From Glycomyces harbinensis (GTDB taxonomy: Bacteria; Actinomycetota; Actinomycetes; Mycobacteriales; Micromonosporaceae), in contig NZ_FNAD01000003.1 in assembly GCF_900101745.1 (NCBI RefSeq), forward strand, positions 372,001 to 436,000: DNA of 64,000 nucleotides. Direction: 5' to 3'. A program made the translations under genes and the position numbers. Under the pieces are notes generated by a model that saw only the letters and a list, made by a program, of their open reading frames with translations, made no database searches and was not told where the DNA came from. This document shows positions 7,608 to 26,062 of this stretch, one piece after another; the stretch's first letter is position 1; each line of letters begins with the position of its first letter.

Positions 7608-7650
7608 TTGACGCGTCCTGCCAGAATCAGTAATGTGTGATATGTTACTG
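7608..7650 (+). promoter_or_regulatory. Promoter and GntR-type operator of the glycopeptide uptake operon
   Basis: TTGACG (7608-7613), 17-bp spacer and TAATGT (7631-7636) form a near-consensus housekeeping promoter. The imperfect dyad TAATGTGTGATATGTTACTG (7631-7650) begins exactly at the -10 hexamer. It matches the dyad in front of the hydroxyproline operon (19631-19650) at 17 of 20 positions, and there too it begins at the -10. This is most simply an operator for the FCD-type GntR encoded between the two operons. Confidence 0.72.
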
Positions 7651-7780
7651 CGTTTCGAAAGTGAACGGTAACCTCATCGACCTGGGGATTCGTTCACGTC
7701 CGACCCCGCGGGCCTCCGGATGATCCCGGCTCCCGAGCCACTCCGCAGCGGCGCTGCCGCGGAGGAACTTGCGCAACGCA

Positions 7781-7803
7781 GTGATATATCACATGTCACA
7801 TAC
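7781..7803 (+). promoter_or_regulatory. Second operator-like site in the leader
   Basis: A perfect 12-bp palindrome GTGATATATCAC (7781-7792) overlaps ACATGTCACATAC (7791-7803). The latter matches the core of the other operators, ATATGTCACATAT, at 11 of 13 positions. It lies about 150 bp downstream of the promoter-proximal site and 105 bp before the binding-protein gene, so looping or roadblock repression is possible. Confidence 0.5.
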
Positions 7804-7908
7804 CAGACTCCCGGAGGCGCGGATGGACGACCGACGAAGCGGGACGACCGTTCCCCCCGGATCCCCGACACCGCTGAACTGCGCGAAGAACCGATAAGGA
7901 ACTCCCTC

Positions 7909-9594
7909 ATGGCCAAACGAACCACCCGGGCGGCGGTAGCCGTCGCGGCGGCGGCACTGCTCCTCACCGCCTGTTCCAACGGCGGCTCCGACTCCGGGGG
8001 CAGTGCCGGCGACGAGCCGACCACCGGCGGCACCATCCACATGCTCCAGAACGCCGACTTCTCCTACCTCGACCCCGCGCGGGGCTTCGACGGCGGCGTC
8101 AACGCGTTCTACCGCCTGATCTACCGCGGCCTCACCATGCAGGCCGCCGGCGACGCCGAGGACCCGAACGCGATCGTCCCCGACATGGCCGAAAGCCTCG
8201 GCACCGCCTCCGAAGACGGCCTCACCTGGACCTACACCCTCAAAGACGGCCTGGCGTTCGACAACGGCGACCCCATCACCTCCGCCGAGGTCGCCTTCGG
8301 CATCTCCCGCGCCTGGGACCCCGAGATCGGCATCGGCTCGCCGTGGCTCAAGAACACGATCGAGGCCCCCGCGGACTACCTCGGGCCGTACCAGTCCGGC
8401 GAGCACCCCGGCATCGAGACCCCCGACGAGCACACCATCGTCTTCCACCTCACCGAGCCCTTCCCCGAGTTCGACAACGTCCTCGCGCAGCCGAACGCGG
8501 TGGCCTTCCCGGTCGGGACCGGCGCCGGCGACGAGTTCATCAACGACGTCATCGCCTCCGGCCCTTACACGGTCGAGACCTACACCCCCGGCAGCCTCAT
8601 CCGGCTGGAGCGCAACGACCACTGGGACGCCGACACCGACGACGTCCGCAAGGCCTACCCGGACGCGTGGGAGTTCGAGATCGGCCTCGACGGGGCCACG
8701 ATCGACGAACGGCTCATGGCCGGGCAGGGCGCCGACGCCAACGCCATCTCCGGGCGCATCCAGCCGGCCACCCTGGCCCGCATCCAGGCCCCGGACCTGG
8801 CCGACCGGGTCGAGACCGCCGACGCCTACTGCACCACCTACATGGGCATGAACACCACCAAGGCGCCCTTCGACCAGGTCGAGGTCCGCCAGGCGATCAA
8901 CTACGCCATCGACCGCGCCTCCCTCCAGACGGCCTCGGGCGGCAACCAGCTCGCCGACCCCGCGACCACGATCACGCCTCCGGCGGTCAGCGGCCACAAG
9001 GACTTCGACCTCTACCCGAGCGACGACTACACCGGCGACCCCGAGAAGGCCCGGGAGCTCCTGGCCTCGGTCGGCCTCGAGGACGGCTTCTCCTTCACCC
9101 TCGACATCCGCTCGCAGCCGATCATGCAGGCGCAGGCCGAGTCCATCCAGCAGGCGCTCGCGGGGATCGACGTCGACGTCGAGCTGAACGTCATCGACAC
9201 CTCGACGTACTACGAGACGATCGGCACGCCCTCGCAGCAGTCCGACGCGGCCATCACCGGCTGGTGCCCCGACTGGGCCTCCAGCGCGAGCACGATGGTC
9301 CCGCCGCTGGTCGACGGCCGGCTCATCACCGACAAGGGCAACAGCAACCTCGCGCAGATCAACGACGAGGGGATCAACGCCCGCATCGACGAGATCAAGG
9401 CCATGACCGACCTCGAGGCCGCGAACGTCGAGTGGGGCGAGTTCGACGAGGAGGTCATGGCGCTGGCGCCGATGGCCCCGCTCCTGTGGGAGAAGGGCGT
9501 CTTCCTCCCCGGTGGGAACATCGCGAACTACATCCCCAACACCAGCATGACCGACCTGACGATCATCGGGCTCAAGGACCCGTCCGTGGGCTGA
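7909..9594 (+). CDS. Oligopeptide-type ABC transporter substrate-binding lipoprotein
   Basis: A family 5 extracellular solute-binding protein (DppA/OppA type), 561 residues. It is the capture subunit of the importer encoded downstream. A lipoprotein signal peptide ends in the lipobox LTAC (Cys22), followed by a Gly/Ser linker. The mature part has typical SBP_5 blocks (PDMAESLGTASEDGLTWTYTL, VRQAINYAIDR, WCPDWASS). The ATG at 7909 is set by AAGGA; the longer frame from 7720 would place the signal sequence internally. It is the first gene of an eight-gene operon with peptidases and an arabinofuranosidase, so the ligand is probably a proline- or hydroxyproline-rich (glyco)peptide. Confidence 0.95.
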   Translation: MAKRTTRAAVAVAAAALLLTACSNGGSDSGGSAGDEPTTGGTIHMLQNADFSYLDPARGFDGGVNAFYRLIYRGLTMQAAGDAEDPNAIVPDMAESLGTASEDGLTWTYTLKDGLAFDNGDPITSAEVAFGISRAWDPEIGIGSPWLKNTIEAPADYLGPYQSGEHPGIETPDEHTIVFHLTEPFPEFDNVLAQPNAVAFPVGTGAGDEFINDVIASGPYTVETYTPGSLIRLERNDHWDADTDDVRKAYPDAWEFEIGLDGATIDERLMAGQGADANAISGRIQPATLARIQAPDLADRVETADAYCTTYMGMNTTKAPFDQVEVRQAINYAIDRASLQTASGGNQLADPATTITPPAVSGHKDFDLYPSDDYTGDPEKARELLASVGLEDGFSFTLDIRSQPIMQAQAESIQQALAGIDVDVELNVIDTSTYYETIGTPSQQSDAAITGWCPDWASSASTMVPPLVDGRLITDKGNSNLAQINDEGINARIDEIKAMTDLEAANVEWGEFDEEVMALAPMAPLLWEKGVFLPGGNIANYIPNTSMTDLTIIGLKDPSVG

Positions 9595-9599: not shown

Positions 9600-10574
9600 A
9601 TGACCTTCACTCCGACAGAACTCGAAGCTGAAGGTGCGGCGGGCGGTGAGGCGATCGGCGAACCCGCGTCGTCCTCGCCGCCCGCGTCAGGACGGCGACT
9701 CGTCCGCACCTTCCTGCGCGACCGCGTCGCGGTCGCCTGCAGCGCCTACATCCTCATCGTCATCCTCATGGCGGTCTTCGCCCCGCTCCTGGTCAAGCTC
9801 AGCGGCTACGGCCCCCTGGAGTTCGACCAGAGCGCCGTCGACTCCAACCTCGGCGGGCTCCCGCTCGGGTGGGGCGGCGGGATCGGCGCCGACCACTGGT
9901 TCGGCGTCGAACCGGGCAACGGCCGCGACATCTTCGCCCGGATCGTCTACGGCGCCAGGGTGTCGATGACGATCGCGCTCCTGGCGACCGCCCTGACGAG
10001 CGTCCTCGGCGTCGTCTTCGGGCTCGTCGCCGGCTACTTCGGCGGGCGCATCGACATGGTCGTCTCGCGCGTCATGGAGTTCCTGATGGCCTTCCCGGCC
10101 CTCATCTTCATGATCGCGGTCCTCTCGGCCCTGCCGGCCGAGAACCGCCAGGCGCTGCTGGTCGTCGTGATCTCCTTCTTCGGCTGGCCGTACCTGGCAC
10201 GGATCGTGCGGGGCCAGACGATGTCGCTCAAGCAGCGCGAGTTCGTCGAGTCCGCGAAGGCCTCGGGCGCCTCCAGCGCCCAGATCATCTTCAAGGAGAT
10301 CCTCCCGAACCTCTCCTCCACGATCATCGTGATGACGACCCTCGCGGTGCCCGGCTACGTCGGCACCGAGGCGGGCCTGTCGTTCCTGGGCGTCGGCGTC
10401 GTACCGCCGACCCCCTCGTGGGGCCAGATGATCGCGAGTTCCGTGCCCTGGTACGCGGTCGACCCCGCCTACTTCCTGTTCCCGGGCGCGTTCCTGTTCC
10501 TGCTCGTGCTGTCGTTCACCGTCCTGGGCGACCGCATCAAGAAGATCGCCGAGTCCGGGGAGGCCCGCTCTTGA
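9600..10574 (+). CDS. Peptide ABC transporter permease (DppC/OppC type)
   Basis: A membrane-spanning subunit of the importer, 324 residues. After a 35-residue hydrophilic N-terminus come six predicted spans. The binding-protein-dependent permease EAA loop is visible (EFVESAKASGASSAQIIFKEILPNL, about residues 215-240), which contacts the ATPases. It starts 5 bp after the binding-protein gene and overlaps the next permease by 4 bp (TTGA), implying translational coupling. The order C before B is the reverse of the common dppBC order. Confidence 0.94.
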   Translation: MTFTPTELEAEGAAGGEAIGEPASSSPPASGRRLVRTFLRDRVAVACSAYILIVILMAVFAPLLVKLSGYGPLEFDQSAVDSNLGGLPLGWGGGIGADHWFGVEPGNGRDIFARIVYGARVSMTIALLATALTSVLGVVFGLVAGYFGGRIDMVVSRVMEFLMAFPALIFMIAVLSALPAENRQALLVVVISFFGWPYLARIVRGQTMSLKQREFVESAKASGASSAQIIFKEILPNLSSTIIVMTTLAVPGYVGTEAGLSFLGVGVVPPTPSWGQMIASSVPWYAVDPAYFLFPGAFLFLLVLSFTVLGDRIKKIAESGEARS

Positions 10575-11569
10575 TCCGCTTCCTCGTGAACCGCCTGCTG
10601 GGCATGGCCGTCGTGCTGTTCCTGGTGTGCGTGTTCACCTACGTGATCTTCTTCGTCCTCTCGCCCGACCCGGCCGTGCAGATCTGCGGCAAGAACTGCA
10701 CGCCCGAGGCGATCGACCGGATCCGCGCGAACCTCGGCCTCGACCAGCCGTTCTGGTCGCAGTTCTGGACCTTCCTCACCGGACTGTTCGCCGGGCGCAC
10801 CTACGGGACCGGCGCGAACCTCATCGACTGCGCCGCACCGTGCCTGGGCTACTCGTTCCAGTCGAGCCAGCCGGTCACCGAGATGATCCTCCAGCGCCTG
10901 CCCGTCTCCGCCACGGTCGCCATCGGCGCCGCCGTGCTGTGGCTGCTCGCCGGCGTCTCGGCCGGACTCGTCAGCGCCGTGCGCGAAGGCAGGTTCACCG
11001 ACCGGTTCATCACCGGGCTCACGCTCACGGGCATGTCCATCCCCAACTACGTCCTCGGGCTCTCGCTCCAGTTCCTGCTGGTGGTCACGCTCGGATGGCT
11101 CCCGTTCCCGCACGCGGTCGCGTTCGGCGACGACCCGGTGCAGTGGTTCGCGAACTTCCTCATGCCCTGGATCGTGCTCTCGATCGGCGCCGCCGCCGTC
11201 TACACGCGGCTCACCCGCGCCAACGTCATCGAGACACTCCAGGAGAACTACGTGCGCACCGCGCGGGCGAAGGGCCTGCGCCCCGGCCTGGTCTGGCGTC
11301 GGCACGCCCTGCGCCCGGCCCTCACCCCGATCGTCACCATCTTCGGGATGGACTTCGCCGGACTGCTCGGCGGCGCCCTCATCACCGAGACCGTGTTCGG
11401 CCTCAACGGCGTCGGCAAGCTCGCCGCCGACTCCATCACCAAGAACGACCAGCCGGTCATCATGGGCGTCACCTTGCTTGCGGCCTTCCTGGTCGTCGTC
11501 GGCAACATGATCGTCGACCTGCTCTATACGACCATCGACCCGCGGGTGCGGGTGGGGAGCGCGACATGA
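10571..11569 (+). CDS. Peptide ABC transporter permease (DppB/OppB type)
   Basis: The second membrane subunit, 332 residues, starting at TTG (GGGGAGG seven bases upstream). It has the typical N-terminal span, the signature LGLDQPFWSQFWTFL, and an EAA loop (ENYVRTARAKGLRPGLVWRRHALRPAL). The periplasmic segment near residues 37-45 carries CGKNC, seen in many actinobacterial homologues. It overlaps both neighbours by 4 bp. Confidence 0.94.
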   Translation: MIRFLVNRLLGMAVVLFLVCVFTYVIFFVLSPDPAVQICGKNCTPEAIDRIRANLGLDQPFWSQFWTFLTGLFAGRTYGTGANLIDCAAPCLGYSFQSSQPVTEMILQRLPVSATVAIGAAVLWLLAGVSAGLVSAVREGRFTDRFITGLTLTGMSIPNYVLGLSLQFLLVVTLGWLPFPHAVAFGDDPVQWFANFLMPWIVLSIGAAAVYTRLTRANVIETLQENYVRTARAKGLRPGLVWRRHALRPALTPIVTIFGMDFAGLLGGALITETVFGLNGVGKLAADSITKNDQPVIMGVTLLAAFLVVVGNMIVDLLYTTIDPRVRVGSAT

Positions 11570-12432
11570 CGTCCACATCGGATGAACGACCGCTGCTGCG
11601 CGTGCGCGGCCTCACGGTCGGCTTCCCCACCGCCGCGGGCACCGTGGACGTCGTCAAGTCGCTCGACTTCGACCTCGCCCGCGGCGGCGCCCTCGGCATC
11701 GTCGGCGAGTCCGGCTCGGGAAAGTCCATGACCAGCCTCGCGATCATGGGCCTGCTGCCCAAGGGCGCCAAGCGCACCGGCTCCATCGAGTTCGACGGCA
11801 CCGAGCTCTCCGAACTCCGCGAACGCGAGATGCAGGCCGTCCGCGGCGACCGCATCGCCATGGTCTTCCAGGACCCGCTCTCCTCCCTCAACCCCTACTA
11901 CACCGTGGGGACGCAGATCAGCGAGGCGTACCTCTCGCACCGCACCGGCGTGACCCGCCGCCAGGCCAGGAAGGTCGCCATCGAGGCGATGGAACGCGTC
12001 CACATCCGCAACGCCCCCCGCAGGGTCGACCACTACCCGCACCAGTTCTCCGGCGGGATGCGCCAGCGGGTCATGATCGCGATGACCCTCAGCATGGAGC
12101 CCGACCTCATCATCGCCGACGAGCCGACCACCGCCCTCGACGTCACGGTGCAGGCCCAGATCCTCGACCTCCTGGCCGAGATCCGCCGCGACACCGGCGC
12201 CGGGCTCATCCTCATCACCCACGACCTCGCCGTGGTCAGCGAGGTCGCCGACCACCTCATCGTCATGCGCGAGGGCGACCTCGTCGAGCAGGGCGCGGCC
12301 GAGCGGATCTTCTGCGACCCGCAGGAGGACTACACCCGCATGCTCCTCGACGCGGTGCCGCGCATCGACGACGAGATCGGCCTGCTGCGCACCGCGGCCG
12401 TAGAGACCGGCACCGCCGAGGAGGACCGATGA
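11566..12432 (+). CDS. Peptide ABC transporter ATP-binding protein (DppD/OppD type)
   Basis: A 288-residue ATPase energising the importer. The Walker A motif is GESGSGKSM, the signature FSGGMRQRVMIAM, Walker B DLIIADEPTTALD, and the H-loop LITHD. The Walker A ends in Met rather than Thr, which is normal for DppD-type subunits. The ATG at 11566 overlaps the upstream stop. Confidence 0.95.
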   Translation: MTSTSDERPLLRVRGLTVGFPTAAGTVDVVKSLDFDLARGGALGIVGESGSGKSMTSLAIMGLLPKGAKRTGSIEFDGTELSELREREMQAVRGDRIAMVFQDPLSSLNPYYTVGTQISEAYLSHRTGVTRRQARKVAIEAMERVHIRNAPRRVDHYPHQFSGGMRQRVMIAMTLSMEPDLIIADEPTTALDVTVQAQILDLLAEIRRDTGAGLILITHDLAVVSEVADHLIVMREGDLVEQGAAERIFCDPQEDYTRMLLDAVPRIDDEIGLLRTAAVETGTAEEDR

Positions 12433-13283
12433 GCACCGAACCCCTGCTGCGGGCGAGGAACCTCGTCAAGGAGTTCACCGTGCACGGCGGCGGCCTGCTC
12501 GGCAGGTCCGCGAAATTCCGCGCGGTCGACGACGTCTCGCTCGACGTCCGCTCCGGAGAGACCCTGGCGCTCGTGGGCGAGTCCGGCTCGGGCAAGTCCA
12601 CGACCGCCCGGCTCATCGCCCGGCTCATCGACACCACCAGCGGCTCCGTCGAGTTCGCCGGCCGCGAGGTCCACGCCCTCACCGGGAAGGCCCTGCACGC
12701 GTACCGCGGCGAAGTCCAGGTCGTCTTCCAGGACCCGTACTCCTCCTTGAACCCCAAGCACACCGTGGAGCGGATCGTGACCGCGCCGCTGGTCTACCAG
12801 AAGCGGCCCGTCCCCGGCGGCGCGCGGGCGTTCACCAGGGAGCTCATGGAGCGGGTGGGCCTCGACCCCGACCACTCGGCGCGCTTCCCGGCCCAGTTCT
12901 CGGGCGGGCAGGCCCAGCGCATCGGCATCGCCCGGGCGCTGGCCGTGTCCCCGAAGCTCATCATCGCCGACGAGGCCGTCTCGGCGCTCGACGTCTCGGT
13001 GCAGGCGCAGGTCATCAACCTGCTTCGGCGCCTTCAGGACGAGGAGGGCTTCAGCTACCTGTTCATCGCGCACGACCTGGCCGTGGTGCGCCAGATCGCG
13101 ACGCGGGTCGCGGTGATGAACGAGGGCCGCATCGTCGAGACCGGCGACCGCGACCAGGTCTTCGGCGCACCGCGCGACCCGTACACGAGGAAGCTCCTGG
13201 CCGCCGTCCCGCGCATTCGGCCAGAATGGGACGCCGCGCGGCGCCGCAACGAGGCGGCCCGCCGGAAACGACAGGAGGCCTGA
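12429..13283 (+). CDS. Peptide ABC transporter ATP-binding protein (DppF/OppF type)
   Basis: The second ATPase of the heterodimer, 284 residues. It has Walker A GESGSGKST, signature FSGGQAQRIGIARAL, Walker B KLIIADEAVSALD (Glu-Ala in place of the usual Glu-Pro), and the H-loop FIAHDL. The C-terminus is Arg/Lys-rich. It overlaps the upstream ATPase by 4 bp, and the peptidase gene begins 2 bp after its stop. Confidence 0.95.
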   Translation: MSTEPLLRARNLVKEFTVHGGGLLGRSAKFRAVDDVSLDVRSGETLALVGESGSGKSTTARLIARLIDTTSGSVEFAGREVHALTGKALHAYRGEVQVVFQDPYSSLNPKHTVERIVTAPLVYQKRPVPGGARAFTRELMERVGLDPDHSARFPAQFSGGQAQRIGIARALAVSPKLIIADEAVSALDVSVQAQVINLLRRLQDEEGFSYLFIAHDLAVVRQIATRVAVMNEGRIVETGDRDQVFGAPRDPYTRKLLAAVPRIRPEWDAARRRNEAARRKRQEA

Positions 13284-13285: not shown

Positions 13286-14563
13286 ATGACGCAGTATTCG
13301 ATGCCCGGCATGTGGGTGCGCGAGCACGCCGTCGACGTCCCGCTGGACTGGGACGACCACGGCCGGGGCGAGATCGAGGTGTTCGTCCGCGAAATCGTCG
13401 ACCCCGACCGCCGCGGCGACGACCTCCCGCTCATCACGTACCTCCAGGGCGGCCCCGGCGGCGCGAACCCGCGCCCGCTGGAGCCGAACGGCTGGATCGA
13501 GGAGGCGCTCAAGCACTACCGGGTCGTGCTGGTCGACCAGCGCGGCACCGGGCGCAGCACGCCGCTCGACGCGCAGGCCGTCGCCGAACTCGGCGACGCC
13601 GGCGCCGACCACCTCGCCCGCTTCCGCGCCGACTCGATCGTGCGCGACCTCGAGCACGTGCGCCACCGCCTCTACAACGGCCGGAAGTGGGCGACGCTCG
13701 CGCAGAGCTACGGCGGCTGGCTGACCCTCGCGTACCTCTCGCACGCTCCGGAAGCGATCGCCGCGGCCTACGTGTGCGGCGGCATCCCCGGGAACCCGAT
13801 GAGCGCCGACGAGGTCTACCGGCGCACGTTCGACCGCGTCGCGGCCAAGACCGCCGAGTACTACCGGCGCTACCCGCAGGACGCCGAGCGGGTCGGGGCG
13901 ATCGCCGACCGGCTCGCGGCCGAGCCGGTGCACCTGGCCGACGGCGACGTGCTGACCGTGCACCGCTTCCAGACCCTCGGCATCGACTTCGGCATGAAGC
14001 CGGGCTTCGAGCGGATGCACTGGCTGGTGGAGAACGCGTTCATCCGGCCGGGGCGCCTCTCCGAGGGCTTCCTCGCCGACGTGCTCGCCCGCACCTCCTC
14101 GGCCGCCAACCCGCTGTTCTGGACGCTCCAGGAGTCGATCTACGGCGACGGCGCGAACGGGCCGACCGCCTGGGCGGCGCAGCGCGAGCGCGACCGGCGC
14201 CCCGAGTTCTCCGGGGACCTGCGCCCGCTGCCGTTCACCGGCGAGATGGCGTTCCCGTGGATGTTCGAGGAGGTCCGGCTGCTGCGCGGCTTCGCGCCCG
14301 CCGTGAACGCCCTCGCCGAGCGCCGCGAATGGAGCCCGATCCTCGATCCCGACCGCTTGGCGGCCAACGAGGTCCCGGTGGCCGCGGCGGTCTACTTCGA
14401 CGACATGTTCGTCGACTCCGGTCTGCAACTGGACACGCTCAAGGGCCTCGGCGGCGCCCAGGCCTGGGTGACCAACGAGTTCGAACACGACGGGATCGGC
14501 TCGGGCCGGGTGCTCACGCGCCTGCGCGAGCTGGTCCGCGACCGAGGAGGAGAACGGCGATGA
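13286..14563 (+). CDS. Proline iminopeptidase-like alpha/beta hydrolase (S33)
   Basis: Predicted cytoplasmic aminopeptidase removing N-terminal proline (or hydroxyproline) from imported peptides; 425 residues, no signal peptide. S33 hallmarks are the oxyanion motif GGPGG (55-59), DQRGTGRS (84-91) and the nucleophile elbow AQSYGG with Ser141. A candidate acid follows in VYFDDMF and a candidate histidine in EFEHDGIG near the C-terminus. It is coupled to the ABC genes upstream (2-bp gap) and to the Xaa-Pro aminopeptidase downstream (ATGA overlap), which supports proline-rich peptides as the transporter's cargo. Confidence 0.9.
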   Translation: MTQYSMPGMWVREHAVDVPLDWDDHGRGEIEVFVREIVDPDRRGDDLPLITYLQGGPGGANPRPLEPNGWIEEALKHYRVVLVDQRGTGRSTPLDAQAVAELGDAGADHLARFRADSIVRDLEHVRHRLYNGRKWATLAQSYGGWLTLAYLSHAPEAIAAAYVCGGIPGNPMSADEVYRRTFDRVAAKTAEYYRRYPQDAERVGAIADRLAAEPVHLADGDVLTVHRFQTLGIDFGMKPGFERMHWLVENAFIRPGRLSEGFLADVLARTSSAANPLFWTLQESIYGDGANGPTAWAAQRERDRRPEFSGDLRPLPFTGEMAFPWMFEEVRLLRGFAPAVNALAERREWSPILDPDRLAANEVPVAAAVYFDDMFVDSGLQLDTLKGLGGAQAWVTNEFEHDGIGSGRVLTRLRELVRDRGGERR

Positions 14564-18915: not shown

Positions 18916-19590
18916 TTGCCATCCATCCAGCGACTGGAACCGGGTCAGAGTCTGCGGGCGCGGGTCGAGCGCACGCTCGCCACCGCGATCATCTCCGGTG
19001 AGCTCGCCCCCGGGACGCTGCTGACCGTGCCCACGCTCGCCGAGCGGTTCGCCGTGTCGGCCACGCCCGTGCGCGAGGCGATGCTCGACCTGGAGAAGCG
19101 CGGCTTCGTGGAGCCGGTGCGCAACAAGGGCTTCCGCGTCACGGCCGTGAGCGACGACCTGCTCCAGGACATCGTCGAGATCCGGCTGCTGCTCGAACCC
19201 GACGCCATGGCGCGCCTCGCACCGGTCTTCCCCGCAGGCCGCCTGGAGGAGTTCCGCGCCCAGGCCGACGCGATCGTCAAGGGCGCCCGCGCGGGGGACC
19301 TCACCGCCTACCTGCTCGCCGACCAGAAGTTCCACCTCGACCTGACCGCGCTGCTCGGCAACGCGGTGCTGGTCGAGACGATCGCCGAGCTGCGCGCGCG
19401 CACCCGCCTCGTCGGACTCGTCTCACTGCTGGAGACCAGCATGCTCGACGTCTCGGCCGCCGAGCACCACGAGCTCCTCGACTTCCTGGCCGCGGGGGAC
19501 GCGGCCGCGGCCGAGGACCTCATGCGCCAGCACATCAGGCACGCCGTCGGATGGTGGGCCGGCAAACCCGAAGCGGCCGAGGGGGAGTAA
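18916..19590 (+). CDS. FCD-subfamily GntR transcriptional regulator
   Basis: A 224-residue regulator. The winged helix-turn-helix is at about 1-70 (SGELAPGTLLTVPTLAERFAVSATPVREAMLDLEKRGFVEP), followed by the all-helical FCD ligand domain with Asp/His metal-ligand-like residues (DQKFHLDLTALLGN, EHHELLDFLAAGD). The start chosen is TTG 18916, correctly spaced from GGGAGAG; GTG at 18910 is in frame but too close. It sits between the peptide/arabinoside operon and the hydroxyproline operon, whose promoters share a dyad, and is the obvious candidate regulator. Hydroxyproline or an intermediate would be the likely effector (inference). Confidence 0.92.
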   Translation: MPSIQRLEPGQSLRARVERTLATAIISGELAPGTLLTVPTLAERFAVSATPVREAMLDLEKRGFVEPVRNKGFRVTAVSDDLLQDIVEIRLLLEPDAMARLAPVFPAGRLEEFRAQADAIVKGARAGDLTAYLLADQKFHLDLTALLGNAVLVETIAELRARTRLVGLVSLLETSMLDVSAAEHHELLDFLAAGDAAAAEDLMRQHIRHAVGWWAGKPEAAEGE

Positions 19591-19630: not shown

Positions 19631-19650
19631 TAATATGTGACATATTACTG
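19631..19650 (+). promoter_or_regulatory. GntR-type operator over the -10 of the hydroxyproline operon
   Basis: TAATATGTGACATATTACTG contains the 13-bp near-perfect palindrome ATATGTSACATAT. TAATAT (19631-19636) is a plausible -10. The same dyad, 17 of 20 identical, sits in the same register on the uptake-operon promoter at 7631-7650. The first gene begins 21 bp downstream after AAAGGAGG. Confidence 0.72.
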
Positions 19651-19670: not shown

Positions 19671-20852
19671 ATGCGAGCGGACGTCGTCGTCATCGGCGCA
19701 GGGATCATCGGCGCCGCGTGCGCGCGCGCCCTCGCGCGCGAGGGCCGCCGCGTCGTCGTGGTCGACCGCGGGGCCCCGGCCGGCGCGACCACCGCGCGCG
19801 GCGAAGGCAACCTCCTGGTCTCCGACAAGGCCCCCGGGCCCGAACTCGACCTCGCGCTGGAGGCCGCCGCGACATGGCCCGGCCTCGCCGCCGAACTCGC
19901 CGCCGAACTGGGCGACGCGTTCCCCTCCATCGAGTACGAACGCAAGGGCGGCATCGTCGTCGCCCTCACCGAGGCGGGCGCCGCACCGCTGCGCGCCTTC
20001 GCCCGGAGCCAGGCCGCCGTCGGCGTGGAGGCCGCCGACCTCAGCGCCGCCGAGGCGCTGGCGCTGGAGCCCCACCTCAACCCCGACCTCACCGCGGCCG
20101 TCCACTACCCGCAGGACGCCCAGGTCCAGCCCGTCGTCGCCGCCGAGGCCCTGCTCGCCTCCGCGAGGCGCGCGGGCGCGCGCGTAGTCCAAGGCGACGC
20201 GGTCCTCGGCGCCCTGCGCGACGACGCCGGCCGCATCAGCGGCGTCCGCACCGCCGCGGGCCGGATCACCGCCGACCACGTCGTGGTCGCCGCCGGGCCG
20301 TGGTCGGGCTCGGTGGCCGCATCGCTCGGCGCCGACATCCCCGTGCGCCCCAGGCGCGGCACCGTCCTGGTGACCGCCCGCATGCGCCAAAGGGTGTTCC
20401 ACAAGGTCTACGACGGCGACTACTTCGGCGCGACCCAGTCGGCCGACGCCGCGCTCCAGACCTCCAGCGTCGTGGAGTCGACCCCCGGCGGCACCGTCCT
20501 CATCGGATCGAGCCGCCAGCAGATCGGCTTCGACGACCGCCTCGACGTCGCCGTCCTCGCCGAGGTCGCCCGAAAGGCCCTGCGGCTCTTCCCGTTCCTG
20601 GAGACCACGCCGGTGATCCGCTCCTACGGCGGCTTCCGGCCCTACATGCCCGACCACCTGCCCGTCATCGGCGAGGACCACCGCCACCCCGGCCTGTGGT
20701 ACGCCACGGGACACGAAGGCGCCGGGATCGGCCTCGCCGGGGTGACGGGCGCGCTCCTGTGCGCGCAGCTCGCCGGCACCGCCCCGGCGCTCGACCCGGC
20801 CCCGTTCCGGCTCTCGCGGCCCAGCCTCGCCCCGCACCTGGAGGCGCCATGA
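19671..20852 (+). CDS. FAD-dependent D-hydroxyproline dehydrogenase, DAO-fold subunit
   Basis: A 393-residue oxidase/dehydrogenase of the D-amino-acid-oxidase fold (HcnC-like subunit). It oxidises cis-4-hydroxy-D-proline to 1-pyrroline-4-hydroxy-2-carboxylate. The Rossmann FAD motif VVVIGAGIIGAACARAL occupies residues 5-21, the ribose-binding acidic end is VVVDRG, and the C-terminal block GLWYATGHEGAGIGLAGVTG is typical. AAAGGAGG fixes the start. It overlaps the small ferredoxin-like subunit by 4 bp; the three-subunit arrangement matches known heteromeric D-hydroxyproline dehydrogenases. Confidence 0.9.
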   Translation: MRADVVVIGAGIIGAACARALAREGRRVVVVDRGAPAGATTARGEGNLLVSDKAPGPELDLALEAAATWPGLAAELAAELGDAFPSIEYERKGGIVVALTEAGAAPLRAFARSQAAVGVEAADLSAAEALALEPHLNPDLTAAVHYPQDAQVQPVVAAEALLASARRAGARVVQGDAVLGALRDDAGRISGVRTAAGRITADHVVVAAGPWSGSVAASLGADIPVRPRRGTVLVTARMRQRVFHKVYDGDYFGATQSADAALQTSSVVESTPGGTVLIGSSRQQIGFDDRLDVAVLAEVARKALRLFPFLETTPVIRSYGGFRPYMPDHLPVIGEDHRHPGLWYATGHEGAGIGLAGVTGALLCAQLAGTAPALDPAPFRLSRPSLAPHLEAP

Positions 20853-21172
20853 GCGACATCGTCCCCTGGGGCGCCGACCCGATCCGGCCCGCCGAGCCCC
20901 GGCCGCTGCGCCTCACCGTCGACGGCGAGACCGTCGAAGGGCTCCAAGGCCAGTCGATCGCGGGCGTCCTCCTCGCACAGGGCCGGACCGCCTGGCGCTC
21001 CACCACCGCGGGCCGCCCCCGCGGCGTCTTCTGCGGGATCGGCGTCTGCTTCGACTGCGTCGCCACCGTCAACGGCGAGAGCGATGTGCGCCTGTGCCTC
21101 AGGCGGGCCGCCGACGGCGACGCCGTCGAGACCCAGGACGACCACGACTCCGCGGAAGGAGCACGCCCATGA
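20849..21172 (+). CDS. [2Fe-2S] ferredoxin-like subunit of D-hydroxyproline dehydrogenase
   Basis: A 107-residue HcnA-like protein. The cluster ligands are Cys62, Cys67 and Cys70 in FCGIGVCFDC plus Cys83 in VRLCLRR. It carries electrons between the flavin subunits. ATGA overlaps at both ends couple its synthesis to the two flavoprotein subunits. Confidence 0.9.
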   Translation: MSDIVPWGADPIRPAEPRPLRLTVDGETVEGLQGQSIAGVLLAQGRTAWRSTTAGRPRGVFCGIGVCFDCVATVNGESDVRLCLRRAADGDAVETQDDHDSAEGARP

Positions 21173-22569
21173 CCCGCGTCCTCGTCATCGGCGCCGGGCC
21201 CGCCGGGCTCGCCGCCGCCGCGGCCGCCGCCGACGCCGGCGCGCGCGTGACCCTCCTGGACTCCGGCGACGGCCTCGGCGGGCAGTACTGGCGGCACCTG
21301 CCGCCGCAGCGCCCGAGCCGCCGCGAAGCCCGACTCCACCACGGCTGGAAGCACTTCCAGCACCTCCAGGCCCGCGTCCGCGACCGCGTCGAAGTGATCA
21401 CCGAGGCCCAGGTCTGGGCGATCGAGACCGCGGGCGGCACCACCGCGAGAGTCCTCATCGGACCGAGCGACGCCGCGGGCCGCGAGTCCCGCCGCCTGAC
21501 CGCCGACGCGGTCGTCCTCGCCCCCGGCGCCCACGACCGCACCCTGCCCTTCCCCGGCTGGCACCTCCCCGGCGTCTACTCCGCCGGGGCCGCCCAGGCC
21601 CTCGCCAAAGGCGAGCGGATCCGCGTGGGCCGCAAGGTCGTCGTCGCCGGCGCCGGGCCGTTCCTGCTGCCGGTGGCCCAGTCGCTCACCGGCGCGGGCG
21701 CCACCGTCCTCGGCGTGTACGAGGCCGCCCGGCTCCCGGCCATCGCCAGAGGCTGGCTGCCCCGACCGCAGCGCCTCCTCAGGACCGCCCACAAGGGACG
21801 CGAACTCGCCGGGTACGCCTTCCACCACCTCTCCCGCCGCGTGCCCTACCGCCTCGGCCGCGCCGTGGTCGAAGCGCGCGGCGACGGACGCGTCGAGGAG
21901 GCCGTCATCGCCCGCCTCGACGCCGACTGGGCCCCGATCCCGGGCACCGAGCGCACCGTCGCCGCCGACGCCGTCTGCGTCAGCCACGGCTTCACGCCCC
22001 GCCTGGAACTGCCCATCGCCGCCGGGTGCGCGATCGGCCCCGACCGGTTCGTCCAGGTCGACGCCGACCAGCGCACCAGCGTCCCGGGCGTCTACGCCGC
22101 CGGGGAGATCACCGGCATCGGCGGGGTCGACGCGGCCCTCGTCGAAGGCCGCATCGCCGGGCACCGCGCGGCGGGCGGCGACCCGGCCGCACTCGCCGGG
22201 GACCGGCGCCTGCGCCGCGCCACCACCGACCTCGCCCGGCGCATCGAAGCCGCCCACGGCATCCGCCCCGGCTGGACCTCCTGGCTGCGCGACGACACCG
22301 TCGTCTGCCGCTGCGAGGAGGTCCCCTACGGGCGGCTGCGCGACACGGCCGCCGCCACCGGGCAGTCCGCGCTGCGCTCGGTGAAACTCACGACCCGTGC
22401 GGGCCTGGGCATCTGCCAGGCGCGCATGTGCGGGCGCACCGTCGAGGAGCTCACCGGCGCTTCGACCGGCGACCCCTGCGACACCTCCGACCGGCGGCCA
22501 CTGGCCGCGCCCATCCGACTCGGCGACCTCGCCGAGCTCGCCACCGCGCCCAACGGCGACAGTGCGTAG
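21169..22569 (+). CDS. NAD(P)/FAD-dependent subunit of D-hydroxyproline dehydrogenase with BFD-like iron-sulfur domain
   Basis: A 466-residue HcnB-like subunit. The N-terminal FAD motif is VLVIGAGPAGLAAAAAAADA (4-23), and a second dinucleotide motif is VVVAGAGPFLLPVA (157-170). The C-terminal BFD-type [2Fe-2S] domain has Cys380, Cys382, Cys416 and Cys421 (CRC...CQARMC). Together with the preceding two genes it forms the complete three-subunit dehydrogenase that passes electrons to an acceptor. The ATG overlaps the upstream stop. Confidence 0.92.
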   Translation: MTRVLVIGAGPAGLAAAAAAADAGARVTLLDSGDGLGGQYWRHLPPQRPSRREARLHHGWKHFQHLQARVRDRVEVITEAQVWAIETAGGTTARVLIGPSDAAGRESRRLTADAVVLAPGAHDRTLPFPGWHLPGVYSAGAAQALAKGERIRVGRKVVVAGAGPFLLPVAQSLTGAGATVLGVYEAARLPAIARGWLPRPQRLLRTAHKGRELAGYAFHHLSRRVPYRLGRAVVEARGDGRVEEAVIARLDADWAPIPGTERTVAADAVCVSHGFTPRLELPIAAGCAIGPDRFVQVDADQRTSVPGVYAAGEITGIGGVDAALVEGRIAGHRAAGGDPAALAGDRRLRRATTDLARRIEAAHGIRPGWTSWLRDDTVVCRCEEVPYGRLRDTAAATGQSALRSVKLTTRAGLGICQARMCGRTVEELTGASTGDPCDTSDRRPLAAPIRLGDLAELATAPNGDSA

Positions 22570-22581: not shown

Positions 22582-23499
22582 ATGAGTGACAAGAAGTTCG
22601 ACCTCGGCGGCGTCATCGTCGCGACCACCCTGGCGTTCAAGGAGGACCCGAAGGCGCCGGGCGGACTCGCGGTCGACTACGACAAGTTCGCCGAGCACTG
22701 CGACTTCCTCGTCGGCAACGGCTGCCGCGGCGTCGGCCCCAACGGCTCCCTCGGCGAGTACTCCTCCCTCACCGACGAGGAGCGCCGCAAGGTCATCCAG
22801 GTCGCCGTCGAAGCGGTCGCGGGCCGCGGGCTCGTCGTCGCCGGCGTCCACGGCGTCGGCTGGCACCAGGCCGTCAAGTGGGCCGAGTACGCGAAGGAGG
22901 ACGGCGCCGACGGCGTCCTGCTCCTGCCCCCCACGATCTACCGCGCCAACCGCGGCGAAGTGCTCGAGCACTACGCCAAGGTCGACGAGGTCGGCCTGCC
23001 GATCATGATGTACAACAACCCGATCGACACCAAGGTCGACCTCACCCCCGACCTGGTCGCCGAACTCTTCGAACTCGAGAACGTCGTCGCGATCAAGGAG
23101 TTCTCCACCGACATCCGCCGCGTCACCGAGATCAGGGAGCGGTGCGGCATCGACGTCATCGCCGGCGCCGACGACCTCCTGTTCGAATCGCTCGTCATGG
23201 GCGCGACCGGATGGTTCGCCGGCTACCCGAACGCCTTCCCGCGCGAAGCCGTCGAGATCTACGACCTCGTCGTGGCCGGGAAGCTCGAAGCGGCCCGCGA
23301 GCTGTACACCGGCCTCGTCCCCGTCTTCCGCTGGGACACGAAGACCGAGTTCGTGCAGGCCATCAAACTCTCGATGGACATCGCCGGCAACAGCTACGGT
23401 GGACCGACCCGCCCGCCGCGCGGGCCGCTCACGCCCGAGCACCACGCCCAGGTCGTCCGCGACACCCGCCGCGCGCTCGACTTCGCCGCCGCACGATGA
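22582..23499 (+). CDS. 1-Pyrroline-4-hydroxy-2-carboxylate deaminase (DapA family)
   Basis: A 305-residue class I aldolase-fold enzyme. It deaminates and dehydrates 1-pyrroline-4-hydroxy-2-carboxylate to 2,5-dioxopentanoate. The Schiff-base lysine is Lys172 (VVAIKEFS) and the catalytic tyrosine Tyr144 (IMMYNNP). The pyruvate-binding loop reads GPNGSLGEY rather than the GTTGE of true dihydrodipicolinate synthases, as expected for a specialised member. It sits between the dehydrogenase and the epimerase, which defines the assignment. Confidence 0.9.
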   Translation: MSDKKFDLGGVIVATTLAFKEDPKAPGGLAVDYDKFAEHCDFLVGNGCRGVGPNGSLGEYSSLTDEERRKVIQVAVEAVAGRGLVVAGVHGVGWHQAVKWAEYAKEDGADGVLLLPPTIYRANRGEVLEHYAKVDEVGLPIMMYNNPIDTKVDLTPDLVAELFELENVVAIKEFSTDIRRVTEIRERCGIDVIAGADDLLFESLVMGATGWFAGYPNAFPREAVEIYDLVVAGKLEAARELYTGLVPVFRWDTKTEFVQAIKLSMDIAGNSYGGPTRPPRGPLTPEHHAQVVRDTRRALDFAAAR

Positions 23500-23536: not shown

Positions 23537-23564
23537 CCTCGCGACCACCACCGATTGGACCGAC

Positions 23565-24566
23565 ATGAGAACGACACGGCTCATCAGCGCCGTCGACTCG
23601 CACACCGAGGGCATGCCGACCCGGGTCGTCACCGGCGGCGTCGGCACCATCCCCGGCGAGACCATGAACGAGCGCCGCCTCCACGTCATCGAGCACATGG
23701 ACGACCTGCGGCGGTTCCTCATGAACGAGCCACGCGGCCACGCCGCGATGAGCGGCGCCCTCCTCCAGCCGTCCACGCGCCCCGACTGCGACTGGGGCGT
23801 CGTCTATATCGAAGTCTCCGGGTGCCTGCCCATGTGCGGGCACGGCACCATCGGCGTCGCCACGGTGCTCGTGGAGACCGGCATGGTCCCCGTGGTCGAG
23901 CCCGTCACCGAGATCCGCCTCGACACGCCCGCCGGGCCCGTCACCGCCCGCGTCGACGTCGTCGACGGGCACGCCGAGTCGGTCACGATCGAGAACGTCC
24001 CCAGCTACGTCGACGTCCTCGACACCACGGTCGAAGTCCCCGGCCTGGGCACGGTGCCGTACTCGATGGCCTTCGGCGGCAACTTCTACGCCATGGTCGA
24101 CCTCGACGCCGTCGGCCTGCCCTTCGACCGCTCGCACCAGCAGGAGATCATCGCCGCCGGCCTCGCGATCATGAACGCGATCAACGAGACCGCGCCGCCC
24201 GTGCACCCCGAGATCGCCGGACTCGACCACTGCCACCACGTCGAGTTCATCGCCCCCGGCTCGGACGCGAAGCACTCGCGCCACGCCATGGCGATCTACC
24301 CCGGCTGGTTCGACCGCTCCCCTTGCGGCACCGGCACTTCCGCCCGGATGGCCGAACTGTGGGCTCGCGGCGAACTCCCGCTCGACGCCGACTTCGTCAA
24401 CGAGTCCTTCATCGGCACCCGCTTCATCGGGCGCCTCGTCGCCGAGACGACCGTCGGGGACCGCCCGGCCGTGATCCCCCGGATCACCGGCCGCGCCTGG
24501 GTGACCGGCACGGCCCAGTACACGCTCGATCCGACCGACCCGTTCCCGTCGGGATTCCAGTTCTAG
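23565..24566 (+). CDS. 4-Hydroxyproline 2-epimerase (proline racemase family)
   Basis: A 333-residue cofactor-independent epimerase. It interconverts trans-4-hydroxy-L-proline and cis-4-hydroxy-D-proline, the first step of the pathway. Both catalytic cysteines are present, Cys91 in MCGHGT and Cys254 in SPCGTGTSA. This separates it from the dehydratase paralogues, which have Thr at the second position. The start ATG has no strong Shine-Dalgarno sequence. It lies after the intercistronic hairpin and 8 bp before the aldehyde dehydrogenase. Confidence 0.93.
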   Translation: MRTTRLISAVDSHTEGMPTRVVTGGVGTIPGETMNERRLHVIEHMDDLRRFLMNEPRGHAAMSGALLQPSTRPDCDWGVVYIEVSGCLPMCGHGTIGVATVLVETGMVPVVEPVTEIRLDTPAGPVTARVDVVDGHAESVTIENVPSYVDVLDTTVEVPGLGTVPYSMAFGGNFYAMVDLDAVGLPFDRSHQQEIIAAGLAIMNAINETAPPVHPEIAGLDHCHHVEFIAPGSDAKHSRHAMAIYPGWFDRSPCGTGTSARMAELWARGELPLDADFVNESFIGTRFIGRLVAETTVGDRPAVIPRITGRAWVTGTAQYTLDPTDPFPSGFQF

Positions 24567-24574
24567 GAGAACCA

Positions 24575-26062
24575 ATGACCGACACGCCGACCGAAGCGCT
24601 CGACGCGATCGCGCGCACCGCCGACGACGCCGCGCACGCGCTGGCGCTCAGCGCTCCCGCCGCCCGCGCCGCCGCGCTCAACGCCGCCGCGGACGCGCTC
24701 ACCGCGAACGCCGACGAGCTGGTGGCGCTCGCGATGGACGAGACCGGACTGGCGGAGGCGCGGCTGCGCGGCGAATTGAAGCGCACCGCCGTCCAGCTGC
24801 GGCTCTTCGCCGACACGGTCGTCGACGGGACCTACCTCGACGCCCGGATCGACCGGCCCGACCCCGAGTTCGCGCTCGGCCCGCGCCCCGACCTGCGCCG
24901 CGTCAACGAACCGGTGGGCCCGGTGCTGAACTTCGCCGCGAGCAACTTCCCGTTCGCGTTCTCCGTCGCGGGCGGCGACACCGCGGCCGCACTCGCCGCG
25001 GGCAACCCCGTGATCGTGAAGGCCCACCCCGGCCATCCGCGCCTGTCCGAGCGCACCGCGGCCCTCGTCGCCGCCGCGCTCGAAGGCGCCGGACTGCCGA
25101 CGGGCACCTTGCAGCTCATCGAGGGCCAGGACGCGGGCACCGCGATGCTGAAGCACCCGCTCGTCAAGGCCGCGGCCTTCACCGGCTCGACCGGTGCGGG
25201 CCGCATGCTCGCCGACATCGCGGCCGCGCGTCCGGCGCCGATCCCGTTCTACGGCGAACTCGGCAGCGTCAACCCGGTCTTCGTCACCGCCGGAGCGATC
25301 GAGGAGCGCGGCTCGGCGATCGCGGCCGGACTCGTCACGAGCGTCGGCGGGTCCGCCGGGCAGCTGTGCACGAAACCGGGCCTGGTGTTCCTGCCCGAGG
25401 GCCACGGCCTCGCCGAGGCGGTCGCCGCCGCCTCCGCCGCCATCGCCGAGCACCGGATGCTCAACCCGCGCATCGCCGCGGGCTACGCGCAGCGGCGCGA
25501 AGCAGTCCTGGGCGCCAAGGGCGTTCGCGTCCTCGCCCCCGGCGAGGTCCGCACCGACGAGGACGGCCAGGCCTGGGTGACGCCCACGATCGCGGCCGTC
25601 GCGCTCGACGACCTCCGCGCGGGCGGCGACACGCTCCTTCCAGAGTGCTTCGGCCCGCTCGCGATCCTGGTCGACGTCCCGGACGGCGAGCGGTACGCGG
25701 ACCTCTTGGAGGAGCTCTTCGAAGGCAACCTCACGGTCACCGTGCACCGCGCCGAGGGCGACGACGTCGCGCGGCTCGTGCGCGCCGCCGCGCGCCGGGC
25801 CGGCCGGGTCCTGTTCGACGGCTGGCCCACGGGCGTCGCGGTGACCCCCGCGATGCAGCACGGAGGGCCTTGGCCCGCAACGACCTCCGGCGGTACGAGC
25901 GTCGGCACGGCGGCCATCGGCCGCTTCGTGCAGGCGGTGGCGTACCAGAACGCACCGGAGGCTCTCCTCCCGCCGCCGCTGCGCGACGACAACCCCTGGG
26001 GCGTGCCGCAGCGCATCGCCGAGGCCGGCGAATCCGCCCGCTGGGGCGGTGCGGGGAACTGA
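24575..26062 (+). CDS. 2,5-Dioxopentanoate (alpha-ketoglutarate semialdehyde) dehydrogenase
   Basis: A 495-residue aldehyde dehydrogenase that oxidises the pathway's last intermediate to 2-oxoglutarate. Catalytic Cys265 lies in GQLCTKPG, Glu228 in FYGELG, Asn123 in ASNFPF, and the cofactor lysine Lys149 in VIVKAHPGHP. The VKAHPGHP/GQLCTKPG pattern is typical of the KGSADH group. It is the last gene of the operon and is followed by a hairpin. Confidence 0.92.
   Translation: MTDTPTEALDAIARTADDAAHALALSAPAARAAALNAAADALTANADELVALAMDETGLAEARLRGELKRTAVQLRLFADTVVDGTYLDARIDRPDPEFALGPRPDLRRVNEPVGPVLNFAASNFPFAFSVAGGDTAAALAAGNPVIVKAHPGHPRLSERTAALVAAALEGAGLPTGTLQLIEGQDAGTAMLKHPLVKAAAFTGSTGAGRMLADIAAARPAPIPFYGELGSVNPVFVTAGAIEERGSAIAAGLVTSVGGSAGQLCTKPGLVFLPEGHGLAEAVAAASAAIAEHRMLNPRIAAGYAQRREAVLGAKGVRVLAPGEVRTDEDGQAWVTPTIAAVALDDLRAGGDTLLPECFGPLAILVDVPDGERYADLLEELFEGNLTVTVHRAEGDDVARLVRAAARRAGRVLFDGWPTGVAVTPAMQHGGPWPATTSGGTSVGTAAIGRFVQAVAYQNAPEALLPPPLRDDNPWGVPQRIAEAGESARWGGAGN

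Follow-up and report, generated by a model that had tools for sequence, protein, structure and literature searches.

A candidate HypR-type regulon joining peptide import, a GH146-like glycosidase and hydroxyproline catabolism in Glycomyces harbinensis

Described systems and the gene content of the locus

Two described bacterial systems come closest to the locus considered here. The HypR regulon of Streptomyces coelicolor (SCO6289–SCO6294; Kotowska 2019, PMC6608401) resembles it in a GntR/FadR-type regulator, the gene order DAO–Fer2–Pyr–DapA–epimerase, an ATGTCAC operator core and the inclusion of a secreted zinc peptidase gene; it differs in that a peptide importer, a prolyl peptidase and an arabinofuranosidase are not among its described members, the peptidase in question is a putative collagenase of family M9, and no semialdehyde dehydrogenase gene is described beside the operon. 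The hydroxyproline-arabinoside system of Bifidobacterium longum (HypAA, HypBA2, HypBA1, a sugar ABC importer and the BauR1 regulon; PMC7263609, PMC5928203) likewise targets β-L-arabinofuranose (Araf) on hydroxyproline-rich glycoproteins and has a cytoplasmic final glycosidase, but it is described as importing the β-Ara2 sugar after extracellular cleavage, whereas the glycosidase studied here sits with a peptide importer and prolyl peptidases, followed by hydroxyproline (Hyp) catabolism genes. GH127 action on extensin has also been inferred from single-cell genomes (PMC4454575), in an account whose available part is silent on hydroxyproline catabolism and on any shared regulon. A sequence-only reading of this DNA knew of no described system joining these steps, and the literature agrees: we found no description of a joint importer–glycosidase–hydroxyproline system in the available parts of open-licence PMC papers, including PMC4113996, PMC7933510 and PMC9147577.

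The window is the whole 64,000-nucleotide stretch of Glycomyces harbinensis DNA that was analysed. Open reading frames and profile matches place 15 intact genes at 7909–26062, covering peptide import, prolyl peptidases, a glycosidase, a regulator and the trans-4-hydroxyproline pathway (Table 1), so that the contiguous locus proposed by the sequence-only reading is real. The glycosidase gene is translationally coupled to the peptide-import operon and the GntR/FCD regulator gene adjoins the Hyp operon. No sugar-type ABC importer accompanies the glycosidase, SBP_bac_5 and OppB/C/D/F components being found instead, although SBP_bac_5 membership does not define the ligand of the binding protein (SBP); no GH121 arabinobiosidase occurs among the 15 genes, each of which matches other families.

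Table 1. Features of the locus and its upstream region (window coordinates)
Feature	Position	Strand	Basis
Promoter-like pair TTGACG (7608–7613), 17 nt, TAATGT (7631–7636)	7608..7636	+	read from sequence
Candidate operator 1, TAATGTGTGATATGTTACT, upstream of importer operon	7631..7649	+	palindrome search
Weaker operator copy, 3 mismatches, also upstream of SBP	7780..7798	-	palindrome search
SBP_bac_5 peptide-binding lipoprotein (SBP)	7909..9594	+	Pfam 248 bits; closest solved chain 2wok, 295 bits
OppC-type permease	9600..10574	+	Pfam-type family match
OppB-type permease	10571..11569	+	family match
OppD-type ATPase	11566..12432	+	family match
OppF-type ATPase	12429..13283	+	family match
Proline/hydroxyproline iminopeptidase, S33 large type, 425 aa	13286..14563	+	family match and solved relatives
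Xaa-Pro aminopeptidase, M24 with AMP_N (aminopeptidase P)	14560..15987	+	family match
GH146-like β-L-arabinofuranosidase, no signal peptide	15984..18803	+	E339, C341, C409, C410
GntR/FCD (HypR-like) regulator	18865..19590 (alternative start 18910)	+	FCD 81 bits, GntR 54 bits
Candidate operator 2, TAATATGTGACATATTACT, 21–22 bp before Hyp operon	19631..19649	+	palindrome search
D-hydroxyproline dehydrogenase, DAO subunit	19671..20852	+	family match; gene order as described for SCO6289-6293 (PMC6608401)
D-hydroxyproline dehydrogenase, 2Fe-2S subunit	20849..21172	+	family match
D-hydroxyproline dehydrogenase, Pyr_redox_2/BFD subunit	21169..22569	+	family match
DapA-like pyrroline-4-hydroxy-2-carboxylate deaminase	22582..23499	+	family match
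Probable 4-hydroxyproline 2-epimerase, proline racemase family	23565..24566 (alternative start 23496)	+	family match, Cys motifs
Aldehyde dehydrogenase, putative 2-oxoglutarate semialdehyde dehydrogenase	24575..26062	+	family level only

Large-type S33 prolyl aminopeptidases of about 440 residues can accept hydroxyproline. The iminopeptidase is of this type, scoring 322–323 bits against 8jgm/8jgn (448 aa) versus 25–27 bits against small-type enzymes in a sequence search of solved structures, and it falls below the NCBIfam prolyl aminopeptidase cut-offs. Both cysteine motifs were found in the epimerase, which scored 337 bits against the NF010578 cut-off of 376 and passed none of the other models. 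The prediction that the locus would fully degrade its substrate is too strong, as the locus contains no arabinose catabolic genes; an L-arabinose isomerase gene is present elsewhere in the same genome.

Family, clade and linkage of the glycosidase

Zinc in HypBA1 is bound by a glutamate and three cysteines (E338, C340, C417 and C418); in the window glycosidase, E339, C341, C409 and C410 are conserved without exception in alignments of 10 and of 33 sequences. Among enzymes of solved structure, the glycosidase scored 201 bits against BT0349 and 143–144 bits against Bll3HypBA1, versus 30–49 bits against GH127 enzymes. It is thus closer to GH146 by sequence, and plain GH127/HypBA1 membership was rejected on these scores; a fold comparison gave a less clear-cut list, with good coverage of residues 10–623 and barely any of the C-terminal OmpL47-like part. 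The enzyme was aligned with solved GH146 enzymes and likened by family, from its nearest sequence and fold relatives, to XeHypBA1 (PMC6085000) and Bll4HypBA1 (PMC10850190), GH146 enzymes that act on Araf-β-Hyp and for which the cited accounts describe no peptide-import or hydroxyproline operon context. Specificity within GH146 is reported to vary: BT0349 acts on arabinan-derived oligosaccharides and β-1,2-arabinobiose, and Bll3HypBA1 on β-1,3-linked Araf.

In a phylogeny with group labels assigned from gene neighbours before tree building, 37 operon-linked glycosidases formed one fork with support of 100. A shuffle test, with 2 of 500 shuffles as low, carries little weight because the second group has only three rows; the interpretation follows from the fork as drawn in the tree. 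Operon-clade enzymes begin at the catalytic domain, and many members of the sister clade have export-type N-termini; N-terminal hydrophobicity never exceeds 1.67 in the operon clade and does so in 16 of 27 sister-clade rows, the two overlapping as sister rows reach down to 1.24. These N-termini support the earlier proposal that deglycosylation is intracellular.

The loci compared are those of the top 80 among at least 543 confirmed relatives (33 named clade loci and 47 others), which is not a census. In this set, at least two peptide genes accompany the glycosidase in 31 of 33 clade loci and in none of the 47 others, and a Hyp gene is present in 22 of 33 and 4 of 47, respectively; the stretch covered holds no Hyp gene in the remaining 11 clade loci, some of which end at contig ends. 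A close SBP occurs in 13 of 150 genomes of the GTDB family, and all 13 have the close glycosidase and also the epimerase. The Hyp operon lies downstream in Glycomyces and upstream in two other genomes (G084 and G006). The comparison supports co-conservation of the glycosidase, peptidases, importer and Hyp genes outside Glycomyces as well. Chance adjacency of the two operons was rejected on the shared operator, the tree clade and these linkage counts. One may still postulate that the locus takes in arabinosides of the sugar type (fragments of arabinan, AGP or RG-II) and that the Hyp operon adjoins it by chance; GH146 is reported to include arabinan- and AGP-acting members, and for 43 of the 47 non-clade homologues among the best 80 the stretch covered lacks a Hyp gene. 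The importer, however, is of a peptide family, two prolyl peptidases lie in the same operon, an operator is common to both operons, and different gene orders recur; we regard this scenario as very unlikely.

Linkage is not universal. Of 15 Glycomyces genomes that have the peptide operon, 5 carry their Hyp genes at another place. Separation of the two operons, which the sequence-only reading had named as counter-evidence if routine, is thus partly observed, yet four of the five separated Hyp loci bear the same site type, that of G152 having no such site. G098 and G132 show decay: the iminopeptidase gene is retained beside the Hyp operon, and operon genes that were lost have left short remnants there. 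We also sampled 20 epimerase loci outside the genus, non-randomly, from 99 non-own matches (14 best and six further down): none carried the glycosidase, and the idea that it always travels with Hyp genes was rejected. On this reverse sample the glycosidase seems to be an accessory of a broader module for hydroxyproline peptides. In favour of an arabinosylated Hyp substrate, locus L193 of Flavobacteriaceae has an epimerase and a glycosidase and, farther along, genes for an FGGY kinase, an Aldolase_II protein and an arabinose isomerase.

These patterns bear on a scenario in which a HypR regulon serves unglycosylated Hyp peptides (from collagen, gelatin or bare plant peptides) with the glycosidase as a passenger whose substrate is some other cytoplasmic β-L-arabinofuranoside. 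Loci L206 and L208 combine importer ATPases, peptidases and the Hyp operon without a glycosidase, G132, G067 and G098 keep only the iminopeptidase gene next to the Hyp operon, and S. coelicolor HypR is described as controlling a putative collagenase (PMC6608401). We nevertheless judge the scenario unlikely: the operon glycosidase is one clade tied to peptide genes in at least six actinobacterial families, it is translationally coupled here with its catalytic residues present, and GH36 α-galactosidase genes inserted in the operons of Leucobacter and Pseudoclavibacter point to plant glycopeptides, fitting the α-galactose reported on extensin serine.

A palindrome at both operon promoters

New here is a 17-bp palindrome at the promoters of both operons (7631 and 19631). 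Exact matches in the 6.17-Mb genome occur only at these two positions; beyond them, one site has one mismatch and the remaining sites have three, and 100 shuffles of the window gave no matches. The second hexamer of the promoter-like pair, TAATGT, falls inside operator 1, and the same TTGACG-17-TAATGT arrangement precedes the SBP gene in G151 (L099); a generic sigma-70 scan returned no promoter-like site. The palindrome shares its ATGTCAC core with the site footprinted for HypR in S. coelicolor (PMC6608401): TAATATGTCACATATTA at 19631 includes it, and at 7631 the opposite strand reads ATATCAC, a variant of it.

The pattern matches 26 places across 22 Glycomyces genomes, and 25 of them precede these genes or a secreted metallopeptidase gene (SBP, 12; DAO, 7; iminopeptidase, 1; metallopeptidase, 5; elsewhere, 1), the odd place (G150:C16:55179) adjoins no nameable regulon gene, and a reversed-pattern control gave no matches. 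The sites are not uniform: those at the DAO promoter have three mismatches in G069 and G049 and two in G117, and those at the SBP promoter have two in G145 and G152, with none under three in G049. A second, weaker site near the SBP gene is found in several other Glycomyces as well. Outside the genus, 10 of the 22 clade loci among the best 80 of at least 543 relatives have a profile site of 15–27 bits upstream of the SBP gene or in the GntR–SBP intergenic region (Promicromonospora, Kineosporia, Actinoplanes, Kineococcus and Brachybacterium), which is the top-scoring match of its own locus in 9 of 10; in Brachybacterium, the top match (17.5) precedes the iminopeptidase gene. Seven Microbacterium loci from the same 80 with the SBP upstream region covered had no such operator; absence in L131, L133, L134 and L151 is uninformative because the SBP promoter lies outside the stretch analysed, and no SBP gene was seen in L142. 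The comparison supports the earlier proposal of one regulon: both promoters carry the same rare palindrome, which is conserved across Glycomyces and recurs in five further actinobacterial genera from four families.

The metallopeptidase gave no match up to E 1 in a sequence search of solved structures, and Pfam returned only a ricin-type domain below cut-off; a Lactobacillales homologue matched the zinc-peptidase domain ATLF (E 0.002, below cut-off). Its site differs from the DAO site at the central base, and the sites of FCD-type regulators can resemble each other; the palindrome might thus belong to a different GntR/FCD regulator, with the two operons and the metallopeptidase co-regulated by a non-hydroxyproline signal. 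This seems very unlikely, since Hyp loci of another type in six Glycomyces genomes (G085, G099, G142, G150, G153 and G154) bear this kind of site, differing from the strict pattern by one mismatch, next to a GntR gene of their own, and 13 of 20 sampled Hyp loci outside the genus have a site above 20 bits within the stretch.

A proposed route for hydroxyproline-rich glycopeptides

In our view the locus is probably a regulon of the HypR type (GntR/FCD) that serves the use of hydroxyproline-rich glycopeptides, a reading backed by comparison with other genomes. Extracellular peptidases would release short peptides with Hyp still bearing β-L-arabinofuranose, and the Opp-type importer, assigned by sequence, may take these up whole. 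None of the three enzymes that would act next shows a signal peptide: in the cytoplasm, the GH146-like enzyme would cleave Araf off Hyp, the iminopeptidase would strip N-terminal Pro or Hyp and aminopeptidase P would strip Xaa from Xaa-Pro/Hyp. The epimerase would then act on free trans-4-Hyp, the three-subunit dehydrogenase would oxidise the product, and deamination followed by a second oxidation would yield 2-oxoglutarate; this pathway is known in other bacteria, and its genes are present here. Arabinose may enter a separate pathway, given the isomerase gene elsewhere in the genome. By analogy with S. coelicolor HypR, the regulator may act on the shared palindrome and keep both operons repressed until levels of Hyp or of one of its products rise; at the importer promoter, the palindrome spans the –10-like hexamer.

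Extensin is a possible substrate, suggested by the Ara-Hyp activity of GH146 relatives and by GH36 in two related operons. A fuller version of the proposal, in which extensin is used import-first, has in our view about an even chance of being correct: intact glycopeptides would be imported (with Hyp-β-arabinose and, in some lineages, Ser-α-galactose), sugars and imino acids would be removed intracellularly under one hydroxyproline switch, the secreted metallopeptidase, previously unassigned, would be the outside cutter in some Glycomyces, and the module would occur in at least six Actinomycetota families.

The described bacterial route for hydroxyproline-rich glycoproteins imports sugar, and the described hydroxyproline regulon starts from free hydroxyproline or collagen. 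If the proposal is true, a regulon that combines the two would account for how actinobacteria of soil and plants gain carbon and nitrogen from extensin, and it would assign a function to a GH146-like subclade. It would also provide an enzyme set (importer protein, Hyp iminopeptidase, Ara-Hyp glycosidase and perhaps a Ser-Gal α-galactosidase) with which plant glycoproteins and arabinosylated peptide hormones could be trimmed.

Operon structure and a shared operator

The locus is real: inspection of the sequence found every gene that the sequence-only reading had claimed in the window, none of them broken. The proposed translational coupling, running from the peptide-binding lipoprotein (SBP) to the GH146-like beta-L-arabinofuranosidase (hereafter the glycosidase), was borne out by four-base stop/start overlaps at 5 of 7 junctions, the other two being gaps of 5 nt (SBP–OppC) and 2 nt (OppF–iminopeptidase); the glycosidase start codon falls within the final codons of aminopeptidase P.

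Positions of features (window positions unless a contig or locus is named)
Feature	Position	Remark
Window	G000 (source genome), contig C13, bases 372001-436000	
Operator before SBP	7631	TAATGTGTGATATGTTACT
Peptide operon	7909-18803	
Glycosidase	15984-18803	
GntR/FCD gene	18865-19590	
Operator before DAO	19631	TAATATGTGACATATTACT
Hyp operon	19671-26062	
GlnE, CorA, GH18 chitinase with CBM5/12, S41 peptidase, two APH-fold phosphotransferases, sugar-type ABC importer	138-5416, 29326-34023, 42698-47079	further families in the window
tRNA-Pro	40223	
Metallopeptidase	G000:C27:74626 (L079 8599-10488)	operator-like palindrome just upstream of start
Exact degenerate operator match	G150:C16:55179 (L114 9180)	upstream of ABC-type ATPase gene
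GH36 gene, Pseudoclavibacter	L131 7685-9904	
GH36 gene, Leucobacter	L133 2893-5070	
FGGY kinase, Aldolase_II, L-arabinose isomerase, Flavobacteriaceae	L193 10443-14014	
Ornithine cyclodeaminase/mu-crystallin family gene, Microbacterium	L132 about 14,800-15,800	between epimerase and GntR

The two promoter regions bear near-identical palindromes. With up to 3 mismatches, the consensus matches the window at these two operators and at 7780 only (0 matches in 100 shuffles), and the 17-bp core occurs exactly at the two operators and nowhere else in the source genome. The single place in that genome with 1 mismatch lies on contig C27, upstream of a secreted metallopeptidase gene; the other places all have 3 mismatches, two of them beside SBP and three elsewhere, and a reversed-pattern control gave 1 match. 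Across 22 Glycomyces genomes, a degenerate form of the operator gave 30 strand matches without mismatch, equal to 26 places, and its reversal gave 0. Assigned by hand from neighbouring genes, these places lie upstream of SBP (12), DAO (7), the metallopeptidase (5) and iminopeptidase (1, in G132), with 1 unexplained. The exact match in G150 is about 38 kb from a Hyp locus on the same contig, and no regulon link was found among its neighbouring genes.

At the importer, the operator covers the second hexamer of a promoter-like TTGACG-17-TAATGT, the arrangement expected of a repressor site. The Streptomyces coelicolor study (PMC6608401) describes HypR as a GntR/FadR repressor of SCO6289-6293 with L-Hyp as inducer, and places ATGTCAC in its footprinted site; the gene order of SCO6289-6293 given there is the same as that of the window's Hyp genes. 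Joint regulation of both operons as one regulon, as originally proposed, is well supported by comparison of sequences.

The metallopeptidase is a candidate extracellular member of this regulon. This 613-residue protein carries an HEFGH (HExxH) motif and what looks like a signal peptide, and it matched no peptidase family in Pfam. Six of the 22 Glycomyces genomes encode it, and each of these also has SBP; its operator, which differs from the DAO site in the central base, has the exact degenerate form in 5 of 6, the G153 copy being 2 mismatches from the strict pattern. Homologues adjoin GH127/146 genes on two gut-type Bacillota contigs, one from Lachnospiraceae (L183) and one from Lactobacillales (L185); L185 has an M24 peptidase as well.

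Co-inheritance within and beyond Glycomyces

SBP is present in 15 and the epimerase in 19 of the 22 Glycomyces genomes, and all 15 SBP-bearing genomes have both. The contiguity that the sequence-only reading had described holds in 10 of these 15 but not in G099, G142, G150, G152 and G153, where the peptide operon has its own GntR gene and the Hyp operon is absent. These five carry a more distant Hyp locus elsewhere (epimerase 69-70% identical), with an operator-type site at one mismatch in four (L068, L069, L113, L116); none was found in the fifth (L115, from G152). In G084 and G006 the Hyp operon is found upstream rather than downstream of SBP. G132, G067 and G098 keep iminopeptidase beside the Hyp operon and lack the importer and glycosidase there; a short OppF piece remains in each of the first two, and G098 retains short remnants similar to OppF (61 aa) and to the C-terminal end of the glycosidase, plus a doubtful aminopeptidase P piece (E 0.02). 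When 150 GTDB-family genomes were compared, SBP had a close match (at least 61% identity) in 13, the source genome included, and these same 13 all encode the epimerase and a close glycosidase (at least 56%); 17 more have weaker SBP matches only (34-41%).

In G124 (L054), conserved metabolic enzymes (DAO and the glycosidase) contain long in-frame insertions made of low-complexity tandem repeats, amounting to roughly 190 aa in the DAO subunit. Alignment gaps suggest similar inserts in the Hyp genes of G108 (L055) and G139 (L050).

Using the glycosidase alignment as query, we scanned a named-genome collection and obtained the 80 top-ranked among 543 confirmed loci; 33 of these 80 were labelled operon-linked from neighbour genes before tree building (two of them, L142 and L151, show one peptide gene only). 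In a 95-row tree, built by a quick method and with several long branches outside this fork, all rows labelled operon-linked, 37 in number (the 33 named loci plus the window, L120, L056 and L057), form one exclusive fork with support 100. Its genera are Glycomyces, Microbacterium, Leucobacter, Pseudoclavibacter, Promicromonospora, Kineosporia, Kineococcus, Actinoplanes, Nesterenkonia and Brachybacterium. Co-conservation of the glycosidase with peptide and Hyp genes extends beyond the genus: at least 2 peptide genes occur at 31/33 named clade loci versus 0/47 of the remaining best 80, at least 1 Hyp gene at 22/33 versus 4/47, and three or more at 15/33 versus 1/47. At seven Microbacterium loci the glycosidase is followed by deaminase and epimerase genes on the same strand. 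No Hyp gene was seen within the examined stretch at 11/33 clade loci, in some because the contig ends. The ornithine cyclodeaminase/mu-crystallin gene in L132 perhaps encodes a pyrroline-2-carboxylate reductase.

At 10 of 22 non-Glycomyces clade loci the Glycomyces operator profile finds a match of 15 to 27 bits, located either upstream of SBP or between GntR and SBP, and this is the best match of its locus in 9 of those 10; in Brachybacterium, the better of two matches precedes iminopeptidase. The other 12 (Microbacteriaceae, Nesterenkonia and one short Promicromonospora contig) gave no match above 8 bits. Seven of them, all Microbacterium, include the region upstream of SBP, and these informative loci have another operator or none.

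The reverse sample comprised 20 of 99 epimerase loci outside Glycomyces, made up of the 14 top-ranked and six of lower rank, and the glycosidase was found in 0/20. In L206 and L208, genes for OppD, OppF, the iminopeptidase and aminopeptidase P immediately precede GntR and the Hyp genes, with no glycosidase among them, and L220 has aminopeptidase P and a more distant importer. The glycosidase thus looks like an addition, in one clade, to a wider Hyp-peptide module of importer and prolyl peptidases.

Glycosidase location and predicted substrate

No signal peptide was seen in the glycosidase, as had been claimed. Operon-clade enzymes start at the catalytic domain or close to it, and none of their N-terminal stretches has a Kyte-Doolittle mean above 1.67; in the sister clade (27 rows: L058-L065 and L153-L173, minus L155 and L162) 16 of 27 exceed this value and most others also have long N-terminal extensions, although the ranges of the two clades overlap. 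No such extension was seen in sister-clade L168 (cut by its contig) or L169. Residues about 807-932 of the window's glycosidase form C-terminal OmpL47-like domains, although the enzyme has no signal peptide; the segment preceding them is absent from three aligned Glycomyces proteins (L051, L052, L053).

GH36 alpha-galactosidase genes (Melibiase scores 390 and 401 bits) lie between aminopeptidase P and the glycosidase in L131 and L133, respectively, and no Hyp gene was seen within either examined stretch. Extensin bears arabinosylated Hyp and Ser-O-alpha-Gal (PMC7933510). In Flavobacteriaceae L193 the end of an aldehyde dehydrogenase gene is followed by epimerase, glycosidase and DUF885 genes and then, past one opposite and two more reading frames, by those for FGGY kinase, Aldolase_II and L-arabinose isomerase, all inside 14 kb; Hyp and arabinose catabolism are thereby brought together. 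Hyp genes also adjoin a glycosidase homologue in Paenibacillus L181 and Muricauda L194; the homologue in Bifidobacterium miconis L190 has iminopeptidase and M24 genes close by on the opposite strand, and a second PF07944 enzyme, this one with the GH127 C-terminal domain, is encoded in Brachybacterium L146. A single L-arabinose isomerase gene is present in the source genome and lies on a contig other than the window's.

Taken together, these results probably reflect a HypR-type regulon for using hydroxyproline-rich glycopeptides. That intact arabinosylated Hyp glycopeptides from extensin, the predicted substrate, would be imported and then deglycosylated and degraded inside the cell under one hydroxyproline switch is an evenly balanced proposition. 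The enzymes and the regulator are each of known kinds. We found no described system joining these steps in one regulon in the open-licence literature, in agreement with the sequence-only reading, and judged against those papers the new part is the union of known kinds of enzyme and regulator in a single regulon.
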